Assembly (NCBI GenBank): GCA_019057735.1 | Contig: JAHLWV010000107.1 | Span: 1-7,250 of the forward strand | Direction: 5' to 3' | DNA: 7,250 nt | From: Promethearchaeota archaeon | Lineage (GTDB): Archaea > Asgardarchaeota > Lokiarchaeia > Sigynarchaeales > SOKP01 | Shown here: positions 1-7,250 of the stretch, one piece after another | Position numbering within the stretch: the first letter of the stretch is position 1 | Layout: each line of letters begins with the position of its first letter | The notes under the pieces: generated by a model | The model's input: only the letters and a program-made list of their open reading frames with translations | Told to the model about the DNA's origin: nothing | Databases searched by the model: none | Position numbers and translations under genes: made by a program

Positions 1-69
1 ATAACTTTTTTACCAAAAGTAGAAATCCTTGAAAAAGTATATAACCTAATTGAAGGATATCTAAAATAA
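1..69 (+). CDS. 3' end of an unidentified protein (partial)
   Basis: Frame 1 is open from the window edge and ends at a TAA at 67-69. It gives 22 residues, ITFLPKVEILEKVYNLIEGYLK, an amphipathic helical tail with ordinary composition. The start and most of the gene lie to the left of the window, so no family can be assigned. The reading is supported only by its coding-like composition and by a T-rich stretch shortly after the stop. The 315 bases to nurA suggest that it is not in the same transcription unit. Confidence 0.5.
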   Translation: MTFLPKVEILEKVYNLIEGYLK

Positions 70-87
70 AGATTGAATCTAACACAA

Positions 88-99
88 TTTTTGATTTTT
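88..99 (+). terminator. T-rich tract after the left-edge gene
   Basis: Two T5 runs separated by GA lie 19 bases after the TAA that closes the left-edge reading frame. Archaeal RNA polymerase commonly terminates at oligo-T tracts without a strong hairpin, and no GC-rich stem is seen here. The surrounding sequence is so AT-rich that T-runs are expected by chance, so this is only a candidate. Confidence 0.3.
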
Positions 100-262
100 C
101 AATATATTTATTAATTTTATATTAGCCACTTAACATCCATTCTAAAAACTATTAAATTTTAAAAGTCCTTGAAGTTTAAAAATGATGAAGGCTAATAATT
201 TTAAAAGAACAAATAATCTCTTAGACAAGGATTAATACAATTTTTTATTTATATTGATAAAA

Positions 263-280
263 TAATTAATATATTAATTA
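263..280. repeat. 18-bp perfect AT-only palindrome upstream of nurA
   Basis: TAATTAATATATTAATTA reads identically on both strands. It lies about 105 bases before the nurA ATG. It could be a dimeric regulator site or part of a TATA element. In sequence this AT-rich a palindrome of this size can also arise by chance, and no second copy was seen in the window. Confidence 0.35.
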
Positions 281-318
281 AAAATGAAATGTAATGGTTT
301 TATGCTATGATTAAATTT

Positions 319-350
319 TTTAAAGATTGAATATCTTTAAATCTTTAAAG
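319..350. promoter_or_regulatory. Inverted repeat with extra direct copy just upstream of nurA
   Basis: TTTAAAGAT at 319-327 pairs perfectly with ATCTTTAAA at 333-341 across a 5-base spacer. The right arm is then repeated directly: ATCTTTAA occurs at 333-340 and again at 341-348. Three half-sites of the same 8-mer therefore lie within 30 bases, ending 34 bases before the nurA start codon. This arrangement would suit an operator overlapping the core promoter, or a hairpin in the 5' leader. Function is inferred only from position and symmetry. Confidence 0.35.
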
Positions 351-384
351 TTTAGTCAAAGAAAAATTAAAAGGATTATAAGAT

Positions 385-1455
385 ATGAAAACTGAAGATA
401 TCCAGAAAATTAAGAACCTGTTAAATTTAGTAAATTTTGGTAAACCTAGAGAATCAATTAGAGAATTTGAAGGTAAAGAAATTGAAGCGATTCAATTTGA
501 ATTACCTAAAATCATAGGAGAAGAATTACCATTAGTATCTATTGATGGTTCTTATAGTATTTTATTTTCCTTTTTAGGTGTAGACACATGGATTGCATTA
601 TTTCGAATTGCGGTTACAGAGTATAAAATCCAAGTAAAAAATGGTAAAATATATTATTTAATTAATACACCCCCAAAGACATTTGATCACCTTAATTTAT
701 TAAGTTTCAACGAGTTTATATTGGACTCTCAATCAGAAGTCTTCTCTAAAGCGGCAGAGATTGCTACAGCGTTCCAAGAAAGAAACCCTTCTTTATTTGC
801 TAGCAATATAATGAGTTATTTGGAAGATATAACATTAGAAAAAATTTCGGAAACTTATAATAATTGTATCTTACTTAAAGACGGAGCTTTACTTACATAT
901 AAAGCGCTTGAAAGAGAGCCAATTTATAGAAGCATAATATTAAACTGCAGGATGAACGATATTTTATTAGCCGGTATCTCTAAATCAACGTCAACTCATT
1001 TCTTTAGAGATAATTATACTGATGATTTTTTCTTAAAAAGATATTATGATAAAAAATATTCAAACTTAACCTATATCAAAATTCCAGATACATTTATAGA
1101 AAGACAAACAAAATTTGATGCTTGGGGTAAAATACATTTTGCTAAATTGCATAAAGAAGCATATAAGTGGTTTAGAGTAGATATAGGTAATGATGGAGGT
1201 AATATTGATAAATTATTTTCATCGATTGCAGCATATTCTATGGTTAAATTAGTGCCTGGTTATCCAATAGGTCTTATTGAAGCTCATAAAATTGCTAAAA
1301 GTGTAAGGGATTTTAAAGATTCTTACGAATTAGAACTTATTAGGGCGCTAAAAGATATGGGGCTTAGTGCCAATGATATTTTGGAAGGTGCGGTAGATTT
1401 AGGAGGAAAAGAGTTAAGCTCATTCCATGAAATTTTGGATCAATTATCAAGATAA
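385..1455 (+). CDS. nurA: NurA 5'-3' nuclease
   Basis: NurA is the RNase H-like nuclease that works with the HerA translocase to resect the 5' strand at double-strand breaks, leaving 3' tails for RadA. The 356-residue product has the family's expected size and layout. An early Asp lies in a DGS motif (D54), followed by a candidate acidic residue E147 (SYLED) and D166 in the LLKDGALL strand. The C-terminal YPIGLIEAHKIA block supplies Y293 and H301, the conserved Tyr/His pair near the metal site. The assignment of E147 is by order and spacing rather than by alignment. The ATG at 385 is preceded by AAGGA at 371-375, nine bases upstream, which supports this start. It is the first gene of the operon, 42 bases before herA. 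No truncation or frameshift is visible. Confidence 0.9.
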   Translation: MKTEDIQKIKNLLNLVNFGKPRESIREFEGKEIEAIQFELPKIIGEELPLVSIDGSYSILFSFLGVDTWIALFRIAVTEYKIQVKNGKIYYLINTPPKTFDHLNLLSFNEFILDSQSEVFSKAAEIATAFQERNPSLFASNIMSYLEDITLEKISETYNNCILLKDGALLTYKALEREPIYRSIILNCRMNDILLAGISKSTSTHFFRDNYTDDFFLKRYYDKKYSNLTYIKIPDTFIERQTKFDAWGKIHFAKLHKEAYKWFRVDIGNDGGNIDKLFSSIAAYSMVKLVPGYPIGLIEAHKIAKSVRDFKDSYELELIRALKDMGLSANDILEGAVDLGGKELSSFHEILDQLSR

Positions 1456-1497
1456 TTCAATTCTTCCTATAAAAAAAAATAAAAAGGTCAAAATTAA

Positions 1498-3174
1498 ATG
1501 TCAGAAAAAGGAAATAAAGAAATTGAAATAGAATTAGAAAATTTAGAAAAACCAGTACAAATCGGTAAAATTGGAGAAGTGTGTTACGCAGACACAGGAC
1601 CACCTGATAGCGTAATAACTTTAAAAATACAACATCGACCCGATAGTTTAAGATTAGGGCAACCATTAGTTATTGAAACTGATAATCTTATATATTATAC
1701 CTTAATAAATCGTTTATATTTCAGTACTCGAAATTCTATTGCGGAGAGATTTGCAAACTCTCCGTTTATTGATTTGCTTCCCCCAAGCCAAATAGAAGGT
1801 GTAAGAGGGAAAGAATTTTACGGCCTTGCTGATTTAAGTTGTCTTAGAATATTACCTAAAAAAAGTTTAGAAGAAATAGAATTTCGAGAGCTCATACGGG
1901 GATTTGATACGATTCCTCCGATATTTTCGAATGGGCGTGAAGTAACAAAAGAAGAGATTGATCTAATCTATAAAACTTCAGAATATTCTGATTCAATTGG
2001 TACATTAAGAGGTTTTGAACATGAAGTTCCTATTGATTTTGCTCAGTTGGTAAAGAAACCATACGGACTATTTGGAAGAACTGGAATTGGGAAATCCATT
2101 TTGAATAAAATAATATGTCTTTTTATTTTGAAGCATCAAATCTCTCAATTAATCTTATTTGATATGCAAGGTGAATATGGATTAATTTCCCGCGCAGACA
2201 AAACAAAAGGGTTAGCATGGTATTATCGAGAGAAAATACAAATTTATCGTCTTGGTGAATTGGATAAGAAACGTACAACGACTGATGGGGCAGAGCAATT
2301 TTTCATATATAAGGATAGCATAACTTCAGGGGATATTATCGCTAGCACCCAGACATTAAATGAACCGAGTATTAATGTATTAATGTATATTGAAGGTTAT
2401 ATAAAGAATAATCCTGAAGAATTTAAGGATTTATTTGATGCAATTGATAAGATTGATGCTGGAGAACACAATCAGATCAATTCCTTCTCTTTGGGTGCTT
2501 TAAGAAACAGAATTATCCGATTTAAAAGGTATGACTTTTTAAAAGAACGTGGTGAGAGTAAAAGGGAAGATAGTTTAGAAAATATTTTTATCAGATTACT
2601 TGAGGGAAAGTCGATCGTAGTTGATTTTGGAAAATACGGAACTAATACTCATCTATATATGTTCATAGCAAATATGATTACTCGTAGATTATATAACATG
2701 TATTCTCAAAAAGAAGACGACACGAAATTACCTCCTTTAATAGTAGTCGTAGAAGAAGCTCATAAATTCTTAAAATCAGGAGTGATCCAGCATACTATAT
2801 TCGGTCGAATTGCTCGGGAAATGAGGAAATTTCAATTAACTTTAGCATTTGTCGACCAGAGGCCTTCTCAAATTGATGAAGAGGTATATTCACAAATAGC
2901 AAATACATTTGTAATGCATATGATTGACGACAAGGATATTAAACGGGTTGTTCAAACATTCCCTGATTCAAAGAAATGGCGCGGAATTATCTCAGGGCTA
3001 CAAAAGAAACAATGTCTTATCCGAGGAGACGCTGTCGCAGTCCCTACTATTATCGATGTCTTTGACTATAAAAACGAAAAAGAACTAAAAGAGAAGTTAG
3101 GGATTGGAAAACCTCTTGCAGAAACGCTTAAAGCTCTGGAAAAAGCTGATTTAACTAAATTAGAAGAGAATTAA
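1498..3174 (+). CDS. herA: HerA hexameric DNA translocase (FtsK/HerA ATPase)
   Basis: HerA forms a hexameric ring that pumps duplex DNA into the bound NurA dimer. The 558-residue product has an N-terminal HAS-barrel (about 20-115), the domain that contacts NurA. The RecA-like core follows: Walker A GRTGIGKS (193-200, K199), the family strand DMQGEYG (222-228), Walker B IVVVEEAH (415-422, acidic E419/E420), an arginine-finger region GRIAREMRK (436-444), and the sensor block VDQRPSQ (452-458). Relative to the usual HerA patterns as I know them, DPHGEYG is here DMQGEYG and SQRPS is DQRPS; the catalytic positions remain. A weak AAGGT site at 1484-1488 precedes the ATG. The gene ends with tandem stops TAA TGA (3172-3177). 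Its position between nurA and mre11-rad50 supports the DNA-resection role over FtsK-type or conjugation ATPases. Confidence 0.92.
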   Translation: MSEKGNKEIEIELENLEKPVQIGKIGEVCYADTGPPDSVITLKIQHRPDSLRLGQPLVIETDNLIYYTLINRLYFSTRNSIAERFANSPFIDLLPPSQIEGVRGKEFYGLADLSCLRILPKKSLEEIEFRELIRGFDTIPPIFSNGREVTKEEIDLIYKTSEYSDSIGTLRGFEHEVPIDFAQLVKKPYGLFGRTGIGKSILNKIICLFILKHQISQLILFDMQGEYGLISRADKTKGLAWYYREKIQIYRLGELDKKRTTTDGAEQFFIYKDSITSGDIIASTQTLNEPSINVLMYIEGYIKNNPEEFKDLFDAIDKIDAGEHNQINSFSLGALRNRIIRFKRYDFLKERGESKREDSLENIFIRLLEGKSIVVDFGKYGTNTHLYMFIANMITRRLYNMYSQKEDDTKLPPLIVVVEEAHKFLKSGVIQHTIFGRIAREMRKFQLTLAFVDQRPSQIDEEVYSQIANTFVMHMIDDKDIKRVVQTFPDSKKWRGIISGLQKKQCLIRGDAVAVPTIIDVFDYKNEKELKEKLGIGKPLAETLKALEKADLTKLEEN

Positions 3175-3207
3175 TGAATTCAGTTTTTCCTTAAAATAAT
3201 AATATTG
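3172..3207 (+). promoter_or_regulatory. herA / mre11-rad50 junction with tandem stops and TTG start
   Basis: herA stops at TAA (3172-3174) and is followed at once by an in-frame TGA (3175-3177). The next gene is in the same frame, 27 bases further on, and its only usable start is TTG at 3205. No ATG or GTG occurs in frame between the TGA and the first nuclease motif at residue 17; the first in-frame ATG is residue 72, after two essential motifs. No Shine-Dalgarno sequence is visible in the A/T-rich leader CTTAAAATAATAATA. Translation may depend on coupling to herA, or initiation may be deliberately weak. Confidence 0.6.
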
Positions 3208-6200
3208 AAGATAAAAACAGGTGAAGGGATCATTACAAAGATATTTTTCATAGGGGATACTCATTTTGGAAAACCGTATTCTTATCGCAAAAATTATGAG
3301 TTAAGTATTTCAGAAAGAAATTTTGATGTAATTAACAATTGCGAAAAAATTATTAATGCAGCTATAGAAGAAAAAGCAGATTATGTGATCTTTCTAGGAG
3401 ATTTATACGAAAGGCAGATGATTTCTCCTACTATTAGAAAAATCGTGCGTGAAAAAATCTTCATGCCTTTAAATGAACACCAGATAAAGACAATTATTAT
3501 TGGCGGTAATCACGATTCTATAAGGAATCCTAAGAGAGGGGCGGATGTTCAAGAATTAGCAAATTTTTCTAATGTTAATGTGTACACAGGTCTAAAACAT
3601 CTAATAATTGAAATTAATGAGAAGAAGGCTGGCATTATTTTTCTACCCTATATCCATTTTGATGTTTTAGTAAAGATGGCTAAAAATGAGGGCTTTATAG
3701 AAAAAGAAATTCTTGAAAATCAGAATAATTACATAATTGCTCAATACATTTTTCAAAATTATATTGAACAGATATGCAAGACTAAACTAAAAGATTGTCA
3801 AAAAAGAATTCTAATTGGACATTATTATTTGGATGGGGCTAAAATTCGAGAAACGAATAATCCAAGAATGATTTACGGGGAATTTCGATTTAATAAACAA
3901 ATGATTCAAAAAGATAAATTTGATCTCGTTATTTTTGGACATGTACACTTAAAACAAAAAATGTGGAACGACGATCGAATTATAATTCCAGGGTCAATTG
4001 ATAGGCTTGATATGGGGGAAAGAGATTCAAAAAAGTTTTACTGCGTCTATGATATTGAGAACGACGATTTAGAATTTAGAGAAATAGAATGTAGAAATCT
4101 TATAAAACTAAATATAGAAATTCCAAATGATACAGAAGATCTAAATCGATTTATTTTAGAAGCTCTACCAGAAAAAGAAAGCGTTAAAGAATCCATATGT
4201 GAAATCGCAATTTATTGTTTTAAAGGAATGGAAGTAAAAATTAATAAAAATCAGCTACAACAGTATTTTAAAGATTCTTTTTATACTAATTTGAACTATA
4301 AAGAAAAAATTGGTCTTGAGCTTCAGAAGCTTCGGAAGGTTAATTTAGATCCAAAAAGCTTATTTAAAGATTTTCTCGAGCAGAAATATTCAACTCATAA
4401 ATATTACGAAGAACTGAAAAGTATTGGTTTAGAATTACTTGAAAAGGAGATCTCCTTAGTTGATTTAACTACTAAAGGTTCTTTATCAATAAGATCTATT
4501 GATATGCAAAATTTTATTAACTACGGAAAAGGACCAAACAAAATTGTTTTTGAAGATGGTTTATATGTTATTAAAGGTCCTACAGGTTCAGGAAAGTCTT
4601 CAATATTGGATGCTATTACGTTTGCTCTTTTTAAAAGAAATTCTCGTAGAGACATAGGACTTACTCTTGATGAAATTTTATATGAAAAAGGATATGTAAA
4701 TCTTGAACTTTTAATTGGAGATCAACCATTAGTTGTAAAAAGAAGGCAAACTTCACCTAAGCTAGAGCTAAAATTTAAGAATGAGCCATTATATACTGGT
4801 TTGAAAATTCCAGAAAAAGAGGAAAAATTAGAGGGAATTGTAGGTTATGACTATGAAGGATTCACATCATCCTTTTTTATAAGACAACAAGAATTACAGA
4901 TATTTTCGTCTCTTGACTCTTCTAAAAGACATAAGAGGCTTATAAAATTGTTTAAGTTAAAGATTTTTCAAGAGGTTGAGAAAAATTTAAAACCCGTAAT
5001 AAAGGATCTCATAGGGAATCAAAATGTTTTAGAAGGAAAAACTGATGAATTAGGGGTAATAATTGAAGAATTACCTCAGTATATAGAAAATCTGAAACGA
5101 AATAATGAAGAAGTCCGGCAACAAGAGAAAGAAAAAACAATTATTTCAAAAGAAGTACAAAAATTAAAAGAAGAAACGGAAAGATTGCAAATTGAAGCTT
5201 TTAACTACTCTAATACTAAGAAATCTATCGATGAGTTAGAGATTGACATTGGTAAGAATGAGGAAGAACTTAAAATATCTAAAATCCAACAAAATAAATT
5301 TGAGAATCTCCAAAAAAAGTTAGAAAAATTTCACAATATTAGAAACGAGAAAGAAGATTTAGGAAAGCGAAAAGAGATTGTTAATAAAAAAATACATGAG
5401 AAAGAGTTAATACAATCTGAAAAAGAGAGCACTCAAAAAATGCTAGATCATATAAAAAAGCAATACGATGAGCAATTAGAGACATTGGTTGATCAAATTC
5501 AAAAAAGGGAATCCCGACTTTCCGGCTTAGATGTTGATATAAGTAAAGATGAAGCATTTAATACTTTAAAAGAAGATGGTATGTTAACAGAAAGACTTCA
5601 CAGGCTGCAGAAAATTGAAATACCTATGGCTAAAGAATATAAAGATGATAAACGCATCAAAGAATTTGTCGCTACAGGAGAAATAACTCGAAGAGAATTG
5701 CAGGTAATTAGACCTAAACAAAAGAAAATAACAAAAGATGTTTTCATTGCAGACGAAATCCAGATAGATCATCGAATATTACAAGAAAAATTAAAAGAAA
5801 TTGAGAAGAAAAAGACAGAGGAATTAGGAGAAGTTGAAAAAAAAATTAAAAAATTAAATGCAAGTCTCGTCAAACAAAGATTAATCGAAAATTTTGAGGA
5901 GCAATTATCAATTATTAAAAAAAAGTTAGAGAAGATTAAAAGACAAGAAGAAGAGAGAGAAGAGTTAGAAAGACGATTAAAAGAAATAAAGGATTATACT
6001 CCCCTAATTAGAAAAAGCGAAAAAGATATTATTAACCTGAAAGAGAAATTTGAAAAATTAAAGGAAGAACTTAAAAGACTGAAACCTTCTTATGAAGAAT
6101 ATTTGGAAGTTTCACGAAAGTTTGAAAAAAAACAACAGGACTTAAATGAGATAAATGAATTATTACAAGGTTTGAAAGGGGAAATCGGATTTATTAAAAA

Positions 6201-6807
6201 AGAAATTAATCGAATAAAAGAATTCAAAATAAAGATCAAACAAATTCAGAAAGAAATAGAACAAGTTAAAAATAATATTGAAAAATATACAATTTTACGA
6301 AAGGATGTATTTCATCTTAATGGAGTTGCTAAGTTTGCTATAGAAAAAATACTTCCAGCTATCTCAATCAAAGCTTCAGAAATTCTAAGTGATCTTACAG
6401 AGGGAAAATATAATCAAATTATTTTCAAATCTTTAAGTGGAAAAAATATAGGGTTTGAAATATATGTATTTGATGGAGAACGAGAAAGGGAGGCATCCAG
6501 CTTTTCGGGAGGTGAAAAAACTCAAATTAATGCTGCCATAAGATTTGCTATAATGGAGCGAATAGCGGAAATTCCAGATACTACTGGGGCGGTTTTTCGA
6601 AAATCGGATACCTTATTTATTGATGAGGGAGATATTGGTACATTAGATACAGAAACTTCAAGACAAAGATTCGTAGAAAAGATTTTTGAACTCAAATCAA
6701 TATTTAAAAAAATTATCCTAATAACTCATTTAGATGATGTCGCAGAACAATTTCCAAATCGTATAATAATTGGATGGGATGAATTAGGCAAGTCTAAAAT
6801 ATTTTAA
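3205..6807 (+). CDS. Mre11-Rad50 fusion: nuclease and ABC ATPase in one chain
   Basis: One 1200-residue chain carries both subunits of the DNA-end-processing complex. The Mre11 half (about 10-420) has every phosphoesterase motif: GDTHFG (D18, H20), GDLYE (D66), GGNHD (N102, H103), GHYY (H206), GHVH (H246, H248) and PGSIDRLDMGE (262-272). A capping region (about 290-365) and short helices around 366-415 follow; the helices resemble the SbcD/Mre11 C-terminus that contacts Rad50. The Rad50 half (about 426-1200) has Walker A GPTGSGKSS (458-466), Q-loop Q561, coiled coils about 585-770 and 858-1035, signature SFSGGEK (1099-1105), Walker B TLFIDEG (1136-1142), D-loop D1148 and H-loop H1175. No cysteine occurs after residue 338, so the zinc hook is absent. 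The start is TTG. The motifs are certain; the fused state rests on uninterrupted sequence and could only be false if assembly had lost a stop. Confidence 0.93.
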   Translation: MKIKTGEGIITKIFFIGDTHFGKPYSYRKNYELSISERNFDVINNCEKIINAAIEEKADYVIFLGDLYERQMISPTIRKIVREKIFMPLNEHQIKTIIIGGNHDSIRNPKRGADVQELANFSNVNVYTGLKHLIIEINEKKAGIIFLPYIHFDVLVKMAKNEGFIEKEILENQNNYIIAQYIFQNYIEQICKTKLKDCQKRILIGHYYLDGAKIRETNNPRMIYGEFRFNKQMIQKDKFDLVIFGHVHLKQKMWNDDRIIIPGSIDRLDMGERDSKKFYCVYDIENDDLEFREIECRNLIKLNIEIPNDTEDLNRFILEALPEKESVKESICEIAIYCFKGMEVKINKNQLQQYFKDSFYTNLNYKEKIGLELQKLRKVNLDPKSLFKDFLEQKYSTHKYYEELKSIGLELLEKEISLVDLTTKGSLSIRSIDMQNFINYGKGPNKIVFEDGLYVIKGPTGSGKSSILDAITFALFKRNSRRDIGLTLDEILYEKGYVNLELLIGDQPLVVKRRQTSPKLELKFKNEPLYTGLKIPEKEEKLEGIVGYDYEGFTSSFFIRQQELQIFSSLDSSKRHKRLIKLFKLKIFQEVEKNLKPVIKDLIGNQNVLEGKTDELGVIIEELPQYIENLKRNNEEVRQQEKEKTIISKEVQKLKEETERLQIEAFNYSNTKKSIDELEIDIGKNEEELKISKIQQNKFENLQKKLEKFHNIRNEKEDLGKRKEIVNKKIHEKELIQSEKESTQKMLDHIKKQYDEQLETLVDQIQKRESRLSGLDVDISKDEAFNTLKEDGMLTERLHRLQKIEIPMAKEYKDDKRIKEFVATGEITRRELQVIRPKQKKITKDVFIADEIQIDHRILQEKLKEIEKKKTEELGEVEKKIKKLNASLVKQRLIENFEEQLSIIKKKLEKIKRQEEEREELERRLKEIKDYTPLIRKSEKDIINLKEKFEKLKEELKRLKPSYEEYLEVSRKFEKKQQDLNEINELLQGLKGEIGFIKKEINRIKEFKIKIKQIQKEIEQVKNNIEKYTILRKDVFHLNGVAKFAIEKILPAISIKASEILSDLTEGKYNQIIFKSLSGKNIGFEIYVFDGEREREASSFSGGEKTQINAAIRFAIMERIAEIPDTTGAVFRKSDTLFIDEGDIGTLDTETSRQRFVEKIFELKSIFKKIILITHLDDVAEQFPNRIIIGWDELGKSKIF
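4444..4457. repeat. 14-bp palindrome containing AAGGAG at the Mre11/Rad50 junction
   Basis: AAGGAGATCTCCTT is a perfect palindrome at codons 414-418, between the last Mre11-like helix and the first Rad50 strand. Its left half is a full Shine-Dalgarno match. No ATG, GTG or TTG follows in the Rad50 frame at normal spacing; the next in-frame ATG is residue 434 (4504). An out-of-frame TTG at 4460 reads only two codons before TAA. It may be a relic of a once-separate rad50 start, or coincidence in a Lys-Glu pair. Confidence 0.4.
5527..5778 (+). other. Cysteine-free apex segment replacing the Rad50 zinc hook
   Basis: Residues about 775-858 lie midway between the ascending and descending coiled coils, where Rad50 and SbcC normally carry Cys-X-X-Cys. 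No cysteine is present. Heptad-like character fades, and the segment contains helix-breaking or strand-like stretches such as KIEIPMAKEY (803-812) and GEITRRELQVIRPKQKKITKD (about 825-845), rich in basic residues. This suggests a small folded apex domain or a long loop rather than a simple coiled-coil turn. Its boundaries are estimated by eye. Confidence 0.6.
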
Positions 6808-6822
6808 ATATTTTCTTTTTTT
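6796..6822 (+). terminator. Terminator of the nurA-herA-mre11/rad50 operon
   Basis: AAAATATTT (6796-6804) and AAATATTTT (6806-6814) are perfect inverted repeats around one base. They overlap the TAA stop and are followed by CTTTTTTT (6815-6822). The stem has only A-T pairs, so the T-tract is probably the working part, as is usual in archaea. A second T7 run at 6909-6915 could act as a backup. Confidence 0.5.
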
Positions 6823-7064
6823 ACAATTAGTTCCATCTTAACACATCTTATGGTTTTAAATATACTCAGTATCAAAGGAAGTAGAACTTAAAATTCCTGT
6901 TGCACCTATTTTTTTATTTTGGAAATCATAAACACTGCAAGATTCGAGGGATAAACTTCCCAAATTCTTTATTAATCTCTAATTCCAATTATAATAGAAA
7001 AGAATCTAATATTCGTTAAAATCCTAATTTTTTAAATGTATTAACATATACATCAAGCAATAAT
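6823..7064. other. Convergent intergenic gap with no recognised feature
   Basis: This is the rest of the gap between the fusion gene and the minus-strand surface-protein gene. Only very short reading frames are present, such as 13 codons from an ATG near 6851. No tRNA, repeat array or stable GC-rich stem was seen. The T-rich run at 6909-6920 is the only notable element. Confidence 0.5.
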
Positions 7065-7078
7065 AAAAAAAAGAAAAA
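7065..7078 (-). terminator. T-tract terminator of the minus-strand surface-protein gene
   Basis: On the minus strand this reads TTTTTCTTTTTTTT and begins 12 bases after the stop codon of the gene at 7091. Its position and composition match archaeal oligo-T termination. No hairpin is needed or seen. Confidence 0.5.
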
Positions 7079-7090
7079 TGGTATTATTTA

Positions 7091-7250
7091 TTATGGTCTA
7101 TTCTTGAATTTTTTAAGCACAAAGTAGACGACAGGAATCGCAACAACACCGATTACACCAAGTGTGATATACACACTTATGAACGGTCCAAATATATTTT
7201 CAGCTTCTTCAACTGTTACAGTCACAATATCACTATTTGAATTCCCTGCC
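7091..7250 (-). CDS. C-terminal end of a membrane-anchored surface protein (partial)
   Basis: The minus strand is open from the right edge to a TAA (complement of 7091-7093), giving 52 residues. The visible part begins AGNSNSDIVTVTVEE, which resembles the last strand of an extracellular Ig-like or PKD-type beta-sandwich repeat. One hydrophobic helix follows (about residues 20-45 of the visible part, FGPFISVYITLGVIGVVAIP and onward), then the basic tail KKFKNRP. This is the standard layout of a type I surface protein with its bulk outside the cell and a short cytoplasmic tail. The N-terminal portion and signal peptide lie outside the window, so the function cannot be given. It is convergent with the resection operon and probably unrelated to it. 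Confidence 0.75.
   Translation of the reverse strand, partial: AGNSNSDIVTVTVEEAENIFGPFISVYITLGVIGVVAIPVVYFVLKKFKNRP

Follow-up and report, generated by a model that had tools for sequence, protein, structure and literature searches.

We analysed a 7,250-nt stretch of DNA from a Promethearchaeota archaeon of the Lokiarchaeia (assembly GCA_019057735.1, contig JAHLWV010000107.1, positions 1 to 7,250 of the forward strand), hereafter the window, which encodes Mre11 and Rad50 as one protein. Three close-packed genes lie on its plus strand, at 385–1455, 1498–3174 and 3205–6807, and the fusion is the last of them (Table 1). It is a single open reading frame (ORF) of 1200 amino acids (aa) that starts with TTG and has no internal stop. 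Two Pfam domains are found in the same chain, Metallophos at residues 12–248 (E = 6e-14) and AAA_23 at 431–657 (E = 2e-14), with Mre11 at the N-terminus and Rad50 at the C-terminus, so that nuclease and ATPase share one chain, unlike the separate chains of the canonical Mre11-Rad50 (MR) complex. The metal-binding phosphoesterase motifs of Mre11/SbcD (DxH, GDxxx, GNHD, H and GHxH) are all present, as are the Rad50/SbcC motifs (Walker A, Q-loop, SGGE, Walker B, D-loop and H-loop), the latter placed around an antiparallel coil. The original prediction, made from the letters alone, had proposed this single open frame, and the analysis confirms it; all 15 residues that it named are found at the given numbers (D18, H20, D66, N102, H103, H206, H246, H248, K464, Q561, S1101, D1140, E1141, D1148 and H1175). 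It had also described the junction as very short, in agreement with the linker of ~8–10 residues obtained by alignment with split sister proteins.

Table 1. Features of the window, with nucleotide positions and the evidence for each
Feature	Position	Strand	Evidence
Aminotransferase gene 3' end (PF00155), border of the slot	1..69	+	frame ends ...GYLK*; homologue beside the slot in kin
Left flank common to kin with the ordinary operon	1..313	.	blastn G145 29929-30242, 94.6%, E 4e-138
NurA-like nuclease, 356 aa, SIDGS motif	385..1455	+	weak family evidence; profile match to NurA; neighbours
HerA hexameric DNA translocase, 558 aa	1498..3174	+	PF01935 E 8e-16; PDB HerA match
Mre11::Rad50 fusion	3205..6807	+	1200 aa; ORF, Pfam, motifs, alignment, predicted structure
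Mre11 part: phosphoesterase, cap, C-terminal helices	3205..4455	+	residues 1-417; Metallophos, Foldseek
Linker/junction without extra domain	4456..4488	+	about residues 418-428; alignment to the tails of split Mre11s and to Rad50 heads
Rad50 N-lobe: Walker A K464, Q-loop	4486..5004	+	Pfam, motifs, alignment
Zinc-free helical apex in place of the CxxC hook	5542..5757	+	residues 780-851; motif counts, model
Rad50 C-lobe: SGGE signature, Walker B DE, D-loop, H-loop	6310..6804	+	motifs, alignment
Right flank common to kin with the ordinary operon	6927..7095	.	blastn G145 36611-36776, 87.6%, E 2e-53
Relic, 3'-terminal 49 bases of the displaced zinc-hook Rad50	6927..6975	+	non-coding, internal stop; aligned to G145 Rad50 3' end

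The AlphaFold model of the fused chain, built with 31 fused sequences, has a mean predicted local distance difference test score (pLDDT) of 78.8 and a predicted template modelling score (pTM) of 0.45. In a Foldseek search it matched solved Mre11 chains, with a template modelling score normalized to the target of up to 0.80 (MjMre11, 4tug), as well as Rad50/SMC chains, and the C-terminal helices of the Mre11 part are expected to bind the root of the Rad50 coil. The first ~9 residues of the ORF as annotated are uncertain, because most relatives start ~12 residues later and the model has a pLDDT of ~40 there. Between the window and its counterpart in a second assembly, G001, the fused gene has 0.020 nonsynonymous (dN) and 0.109 synonymous (dS) substitutions per site and is thus under purifying selection. 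Along the cassettes (window 385–6804 versus L041 of G001) dS is uneven: it is ~0.02 in the NurA and HerA genes and 0.04 in Mre11, rises to ~0.2 across the N-lobe, first arm and apex of Rad50, and falls again to 0.12 in its second arm and 0.05 in its C-lobe, a pattern which suggests recombination inside the fused gene.

Co-linear relatives, which the original prediction had left to a database search, do exist. A protein search with the full fused chain gave 115 matches, 31 of which are clusters of full-length fusions (1169–1207 aa). All of these except P0009 were aligned with the window protein, to which they are 27–95% identical; across the window and the 30 aligned clusters the metal ligands and ATPase motifs show little or no variation. 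G001 carries the same fusion, equal in length and 95% identical in amino acids. The P0002 protein differs from that of G001 at 6 positions and may represent a cluster that also contains the window's own protein, leaving 30 fused clusters that are clearly other genes. Since the fusion is common to 31 full-length clusters and to the second assembly, we rejected an assembly or sequencing artefact at the junction, the probability of which is negligible. Where the source names the organism, the fused matches belong to Lokiarchaeota or Promethearchaeota. Among 227 genomes of the phylum, surveyed by scoring the three best candidates per genome, the full fusion is found in six, at seven places (G001, G116 twice, G125, G131, G087 and G085), the fusion of G085 showing 28% identity. 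Single stops in G125, G131 and one of the G116 copies precede the start codon, and the frames are open.

A zinc hook generally counts as a defining feature of Rad50. The Rad50 half of the window fusion has no cysteines at all, none being found after residue 338, and CxxC is absent from all 59 nearest matches (P0002–P0060), which include fused, split and some partial proteins. At the hook position, 56 of the 59 have the motif AF..L....ER..R, the exceptions being P0021, P0037 (a 731-aa partial protein) and P0047 (a variant). The 56 more distant matches (P0061–P0116) served as a control: a central CxxC is present in 51 and the apex motif in none, and the five that lack CxxC comprise four members of a phage-like fusion family and P0110. 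The apex block of ~75 residues is on the whole more conserved than the neighbouring arms, with mean majority frequencies of 0.68–0.69 for residues 781–820 and 0.52–0.58 for residues 821–860, compared to 0.39–0.53 (one value of 0.62) in most arm stretches. Modeled separately (191 residues, 11 sequences; mean pLDDT 92.2, pTM 0.65), the apex is predicted to consist of two extra helices, ~781–811 and 815–840, which connect the two arm helices.

The gene order NurA–HerA–Mre11::Rad50 is conserved in all seven loci that have the three genes on the contig (the window, G001, G116 twice, G131, G087 and G085); the contig of G125 starts inside HerA. Intergenic gaps in the fused cassettes are 3–42 base pairs (bp), apart from one of 190 bp. 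By sequence, the second gene is firmly assigned to HerA, its profile matching PDB HerA 4d2i with E = 3.5e-25. The NurA-like protein on its own has no Pfam match; a relative matches the NurA domain PF09376 below the cut-off (E = 0.059), and a profile of 10 relatives matches PDB NurA 2ygk weakly (E = 0.0055). In the other fused loci, the flanking genes are mostly unrelated. A gene for a Piwi-domain (Argonaute-like) protein adjoins one fused cassette in G116 (L043, 16570–18849). Moreover, proteins of ~320 aa, 40–59% identical to each other, adjoin three fused cassettes (L043, 9061–10038; L045, 4975–5949; L044, 6324–7280), and the L043 copy has no Pfam match.

In close relatives the same site holds a different operon. 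In G145, G150 and the more distant G133, the slot between the aminotransferase and Alba genes, seen in G150 from the aminotransferase side, is filled by HerA–NurA–Mre11–Rad50 with a CPTC hook. The neighbouring genes of G145 and G150 are 77–98% identical to those of G001, and 24 genes around the slot are syntenic between G001 and G145. The left flank match stops a few bases into the displaced HerA gene, and to the right of the fusion the window retains a remnant of the displaced Rad50. This relic reads NTARFEG*TSQILY* (asterisks are stops), its counterpart in G140 and G150 being STARFEGETSQILY*, and it aligns with a score of 63, versus a mean of 21.5 and a maximum of 32 for 300 codon shuffles. 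Part of the tail, GIS-x-A-R/K-F/Y, recurs in six out of eight native-type Rad50s examined from other genera; among those eight, the tail of G157 is similar and that of G096 has diverged. The flank sequence does not recur with the native-type Rad50s of other genera (best E = 0.004). Thus, the relic descends from a Rad50 gene, and the native operon preceded the fused cassette at this site. This recurrence of the tail in other genera led us to reject the reverse direction, in which flank DNA was captured as the end of the native Rad50. Consistently, no native-type Mre11 was found in G001, and searches of that genome for native-type Rad50 and HerA gave only weak matches of the fused cassette itself. 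Its other Mre11-profile match is a 397-aa protein on contig C16, of a kind also present in genomes with the native operon. Here, therefore, a fused hookless module substitutes for the one with the zinc hook. The original prediction had held that close relatives which all encode two separate proteins would speak against the fusion; the split pairs at this locus in very close genomes are of another lineage, ~25% identical, which was displaced. Its picture of a real single chain with intact motifs and a short junction thus stands, whereas the missing zinc hook and the scar left by the replacement had been overlooked.

Several further features of these loci were observed. Between positions 7095 and 7174 of the window the alignment with G001 breaks, and ~530 bases of G001 (12433–11902) have no counterpart in the window. 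G001 also encodes a stand-alone Rad50-like ATPase of 664 aa with a CPIC hook (L060, 5598–7592), and no recognisable Mre11 is found in the neighbouring frames. Native-type lokiarchaeal Mre11s (L057, 3253–4563; L055, 6289–7599; L058, 2803–4077) have GNHG, most other aligned Mre11s having GNHD.

The slot is variable throughout the genus. Both flanks could be seen in the stretches fetched from 17 of the 24 genomes, and we named the contents by types coined here: the native C type in nine genomes, the fused F type in one, H type in two and M type in two, the remaining three having no Mre11-Rad50 in the slot (G131, with F elsewhere; G137, with C elsewhere; and G139). The H type consists of NurA-like, HerA, Mre11 and a Rad50 with CSLC. 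One flank is visible in four more genomes, with C in G150, G130 and G151 and H in G143; G141, G148 and G149 have no close copy of the flanking aminotransferase and fall outside the survey. Across the genus, the slot is therefore either filled by one of at least four Mre11-Rad50 types or free of them. The M type (L122, 8515–12728; L126, 2110–10819) has an Mre11 of 517–519 aa and a Rad50 of 884–886 aa with a C-x6-C apex, and in G144 it is accompanied by a 1492-aa gene product. In G139, which is 97% complete, the slot is empty (L111, 600–2723) and no Mre11-like match is found at E 1e-8; possibly some Lokiarchaea can do without Mre11-Rad50, unless the genes are simply missing from this assembly. 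The aminotransferase loci of G131 and G116 have no Mre11-Rad50 in the stretches seen.

The closest split relatives of the fusion have the same apex. Split hookless Rad50s are found in the Asgard family f15 (G052, G049, G042 and G050) and in Thermoplasmata (P0043 and P0057); they share the apex motif and lack CxxC, and differ from the window in that Mre11 and Rad50 are separate. Members of f15 have the order NurA–HerA–Mre11–Rad50, as in the window, and in all four loci there is a 4-bp overlap between the stop of Mre11 and the start of Rad50. In G050 the frame for the hookless Rad50 next to Mre11 spans only 224 aa (L063, 3858–4532), and a further Rad50 match, a 623-aa frame, lies ~0.5 Mb away on the same contig; the sequence points to a broken or rearranged gene. 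In our phylogenetic analysis of Rad50 heads, 27 hookless sequences form one clade (support 100/99). The first tree was computed without the native-type sequences L055, L057 and L058; in a repeat that includes them, the hookless clade is recovered (100/100) and the native types fall outside it (a masked stretch in L048 was handled as gaps). The fusions of G085 and P0040 group with split forms in the Rad50 trees (90/82 and 91/81), yet a single clade of fused forms is not rejected by the approximately unbiased (AU) test (p-AU 0.158), and the Mre11 tree leaves a three-way fork, so the trees are compatible with one origin of all archaeal fusions or with more.

Collectively, we propose, with a probability of about 0.7, that the window carries a complete NurA–HerA–(Mre11-Rad50) end-resection module of a distinct lineage with a hookless apex, which replaced the native operon and took over its job. 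In the usual MR complex, the two proteins assemble into an M2R2 ring in which Mre11 binds the root of the Rad50 arms. Judging from the sister operons, the fusion would have arisen by a small insertion or deletion at the 4-base Mre11/Rad50 overlap of the split form, whereby the stop was lost. The chain would then dimerise via its Mre11 parts and the ATP-clamped Rad50 heads, as ordinary MR complexes do, and its two coiled-coil arms would contact each other at their tips via the helical, metal-free apex with no zinc hook. In the Thermotoga complex, as described in a passage of Yoshida, Claverie and Ogata (2011; PMC3175470), the Mre11 C-terminus lies ~28 Å from the Rad50 N-terminus, which leaves room for a linker of 9–12 residues; the linker length found here fits this spacing, so the fused chain can adopt the ordinary geometry. 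Tatebe et al. (2020; PMC6969161) report that repair in fission yeast is restored when a MukB hinge is substituted for the hook, and by analogy a swap of the apex is mechanically plausible. The replacement of HerA–NurA–Mre11–Rad50 by the module, in an ancestor of this genome and G001, would have come about by recombination at the flanks. The module presumably took over the native job, in which breaks would be opened and tethered and the end passed to HerA–NurA for 5' resection.

A number of observations weigh against this proposal. The NurA identity, drawn from the neighbours and the conserved DGS motif, is a weak assignment. G001 is 92% complete, and absences there are not proof. Between the right flank match and Alba, G001 has ~9 kb of extra genes that are absent from G145, and the slot therefore acquired more than the fused cassette. 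As the other fused loci have mostly unrelated flanks, displacement is shown for the window and G001 only. Nor is the fused form the sole one in every genome: an additional Mre11-Rad50 operon is present in G116 and in G125, and G116 carries the fusion twice. Native-type Mre11 (29 carriers) and the fused form (six) co-occur in none of the 79 genomes of the order (P = 0.057), which on its own is a weak statistical argument for mutual exclusion, and 44 of the 79 have neither form. Finally, comparison of the apex model with solved structures gave no convincing match and no known fold, and dimerisation through the apex is a guess.

Three other explanations have to be weighed. The cassette might be an accessory, possibly anti-viral, travelling helicase-nuclease set that happened to land in the slot of a repair operon. 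Its patchy distribution in the phylum, the mostly unrelated surroundings of the other copies, the Piwi-domain gene beside one of them and the empty slot of G139 would all fit this, and PADLOC HerA profiles match the window HerA (best E = 2e-34). However, the PADLOC matches concern HerA and SMC-like ATPases and fit repair proteins too, and no defence family is found among the G001 neighbours scanned (4 + 3 with Pfam, 2 with PADLOC). Moreover, the cassette sits at the site of the native operon, which is gone, and has the same gene content as the operon it displaced, so we regard the accessory role as improbable. Less improbable, though still unlikely, is that the apex joins no arms, the protein being a head-only dimer with free arms whose apex binds DNA or a partner. 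Loss of the hook is complete in the clade, and the apex has invariant charged residues (E796, R797, R800, E805 and D814) in addition to hydrophobic ones. Against this, conservation is higher in the apex than in the arms, and the apex occupies the precise site of the hook, where a substitute dimerisation site would be expected, although DNA binding would fit too.

Very unlikely, by comparison, is that the fused gene came into archaea from a viral or plasmid pool, as the 2011 paper proposed for other fusions. Fusions are frequent in viruses, according to the passages of that paper that treat them (PMC3175470), and phage records point to a separate, phage-like fusion family (P0081, P0082, P0085 and P0086). 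Identity to that family is only ~22%, and the apex motif is missing from it; none of the phage records reaches 80% coverage of the window protein, and the nearest split relatives are archaeal, with the hookless apex and, in f15, the same NurA–HerA context. The members of this second, remote family are 1035 aa long and have relatives in phages, the cysteines of P0081 forming C-x6-C; in Microcystis phage Mel-JY01 (PP395634.1, 183173–186373) a gene annotated merely as AAA domain protein matches both halves.

Beyond the resection module itself, we tentatively suggest, as a joint reading which falls somewhat short of probable, that the MR machine of Lokiarchaea is an exchangeable cartridge, its slot being repeatedly emptied or refilled with remote MR modules, from the zinc-hook C and H types to the C-x6-C M type and the hookless F type, and that evolution swapped the zinc hook for a different, metal-free tip that joins the arms. 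Refilling is perhaps driven by virus-encoded inhibitors of the resident MR type.

Fusion of Mre11 and Rad50 as such is already known. Since 2011 it has been described in viruses, plasmids, bacteria and eukaryotes, and the passages of the paper that list the cases name Mimivirus R555, a Clostridium kluyveri plasmid, a Deferribacter megaplasmid, Dictyostelium, Physcomitrella and a Bacillus phage, among others (PMC3175470); by its own account these fusions are polyphyletic. As described there, they resemble the window fusion in having Mre11 first and Rad50 second, a short linker and a sporadic distribution, but the canonical pair coexists with them in every cellular carrier except Deferribacter, whereas here the native pair has been physically replaced. 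No archaeal fusion is listed in the passages of the paper that name archaea, and in its text the words hook, HerA and NurA are not used, NurA occurring in one reference title only. The canonical archaeal HerA–NurA–Mre11–Rad50 operon (C type, G145) places the same four activities side by side, in the same slot within the genus, yet has two MR chains, a CxxC zinc hook and HerA before NurA, with only ~25% identity. The yeast Rad50 with a MukB hinge likewise has its zinc hook replaced by another apex; as portrayed in that report (PMC6969161) it is engineered, with an SMC hinge of 150–200 aa, in contrast to the natural helical apex of ~75 residues found here. A literature search of titles and abstract openings found no archaeal Mre11-Rad50 fusion, no hookless Rad50 clade and no swapping of MR operons; going by this search, the archaeal hookless form and the in-place swap appear to be new.

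A natural hookless clade with a conserved substitute makes the purpose of the hook testable by comparison, beyond engineering alone. In the fused chain, nuclease and ATPase are fixed side by side, and such a one-piece enzyme could be handy for structural work. Furthermore, the scar in the window directly documents the in-place exchange of an entire repair operon for a remote relative.

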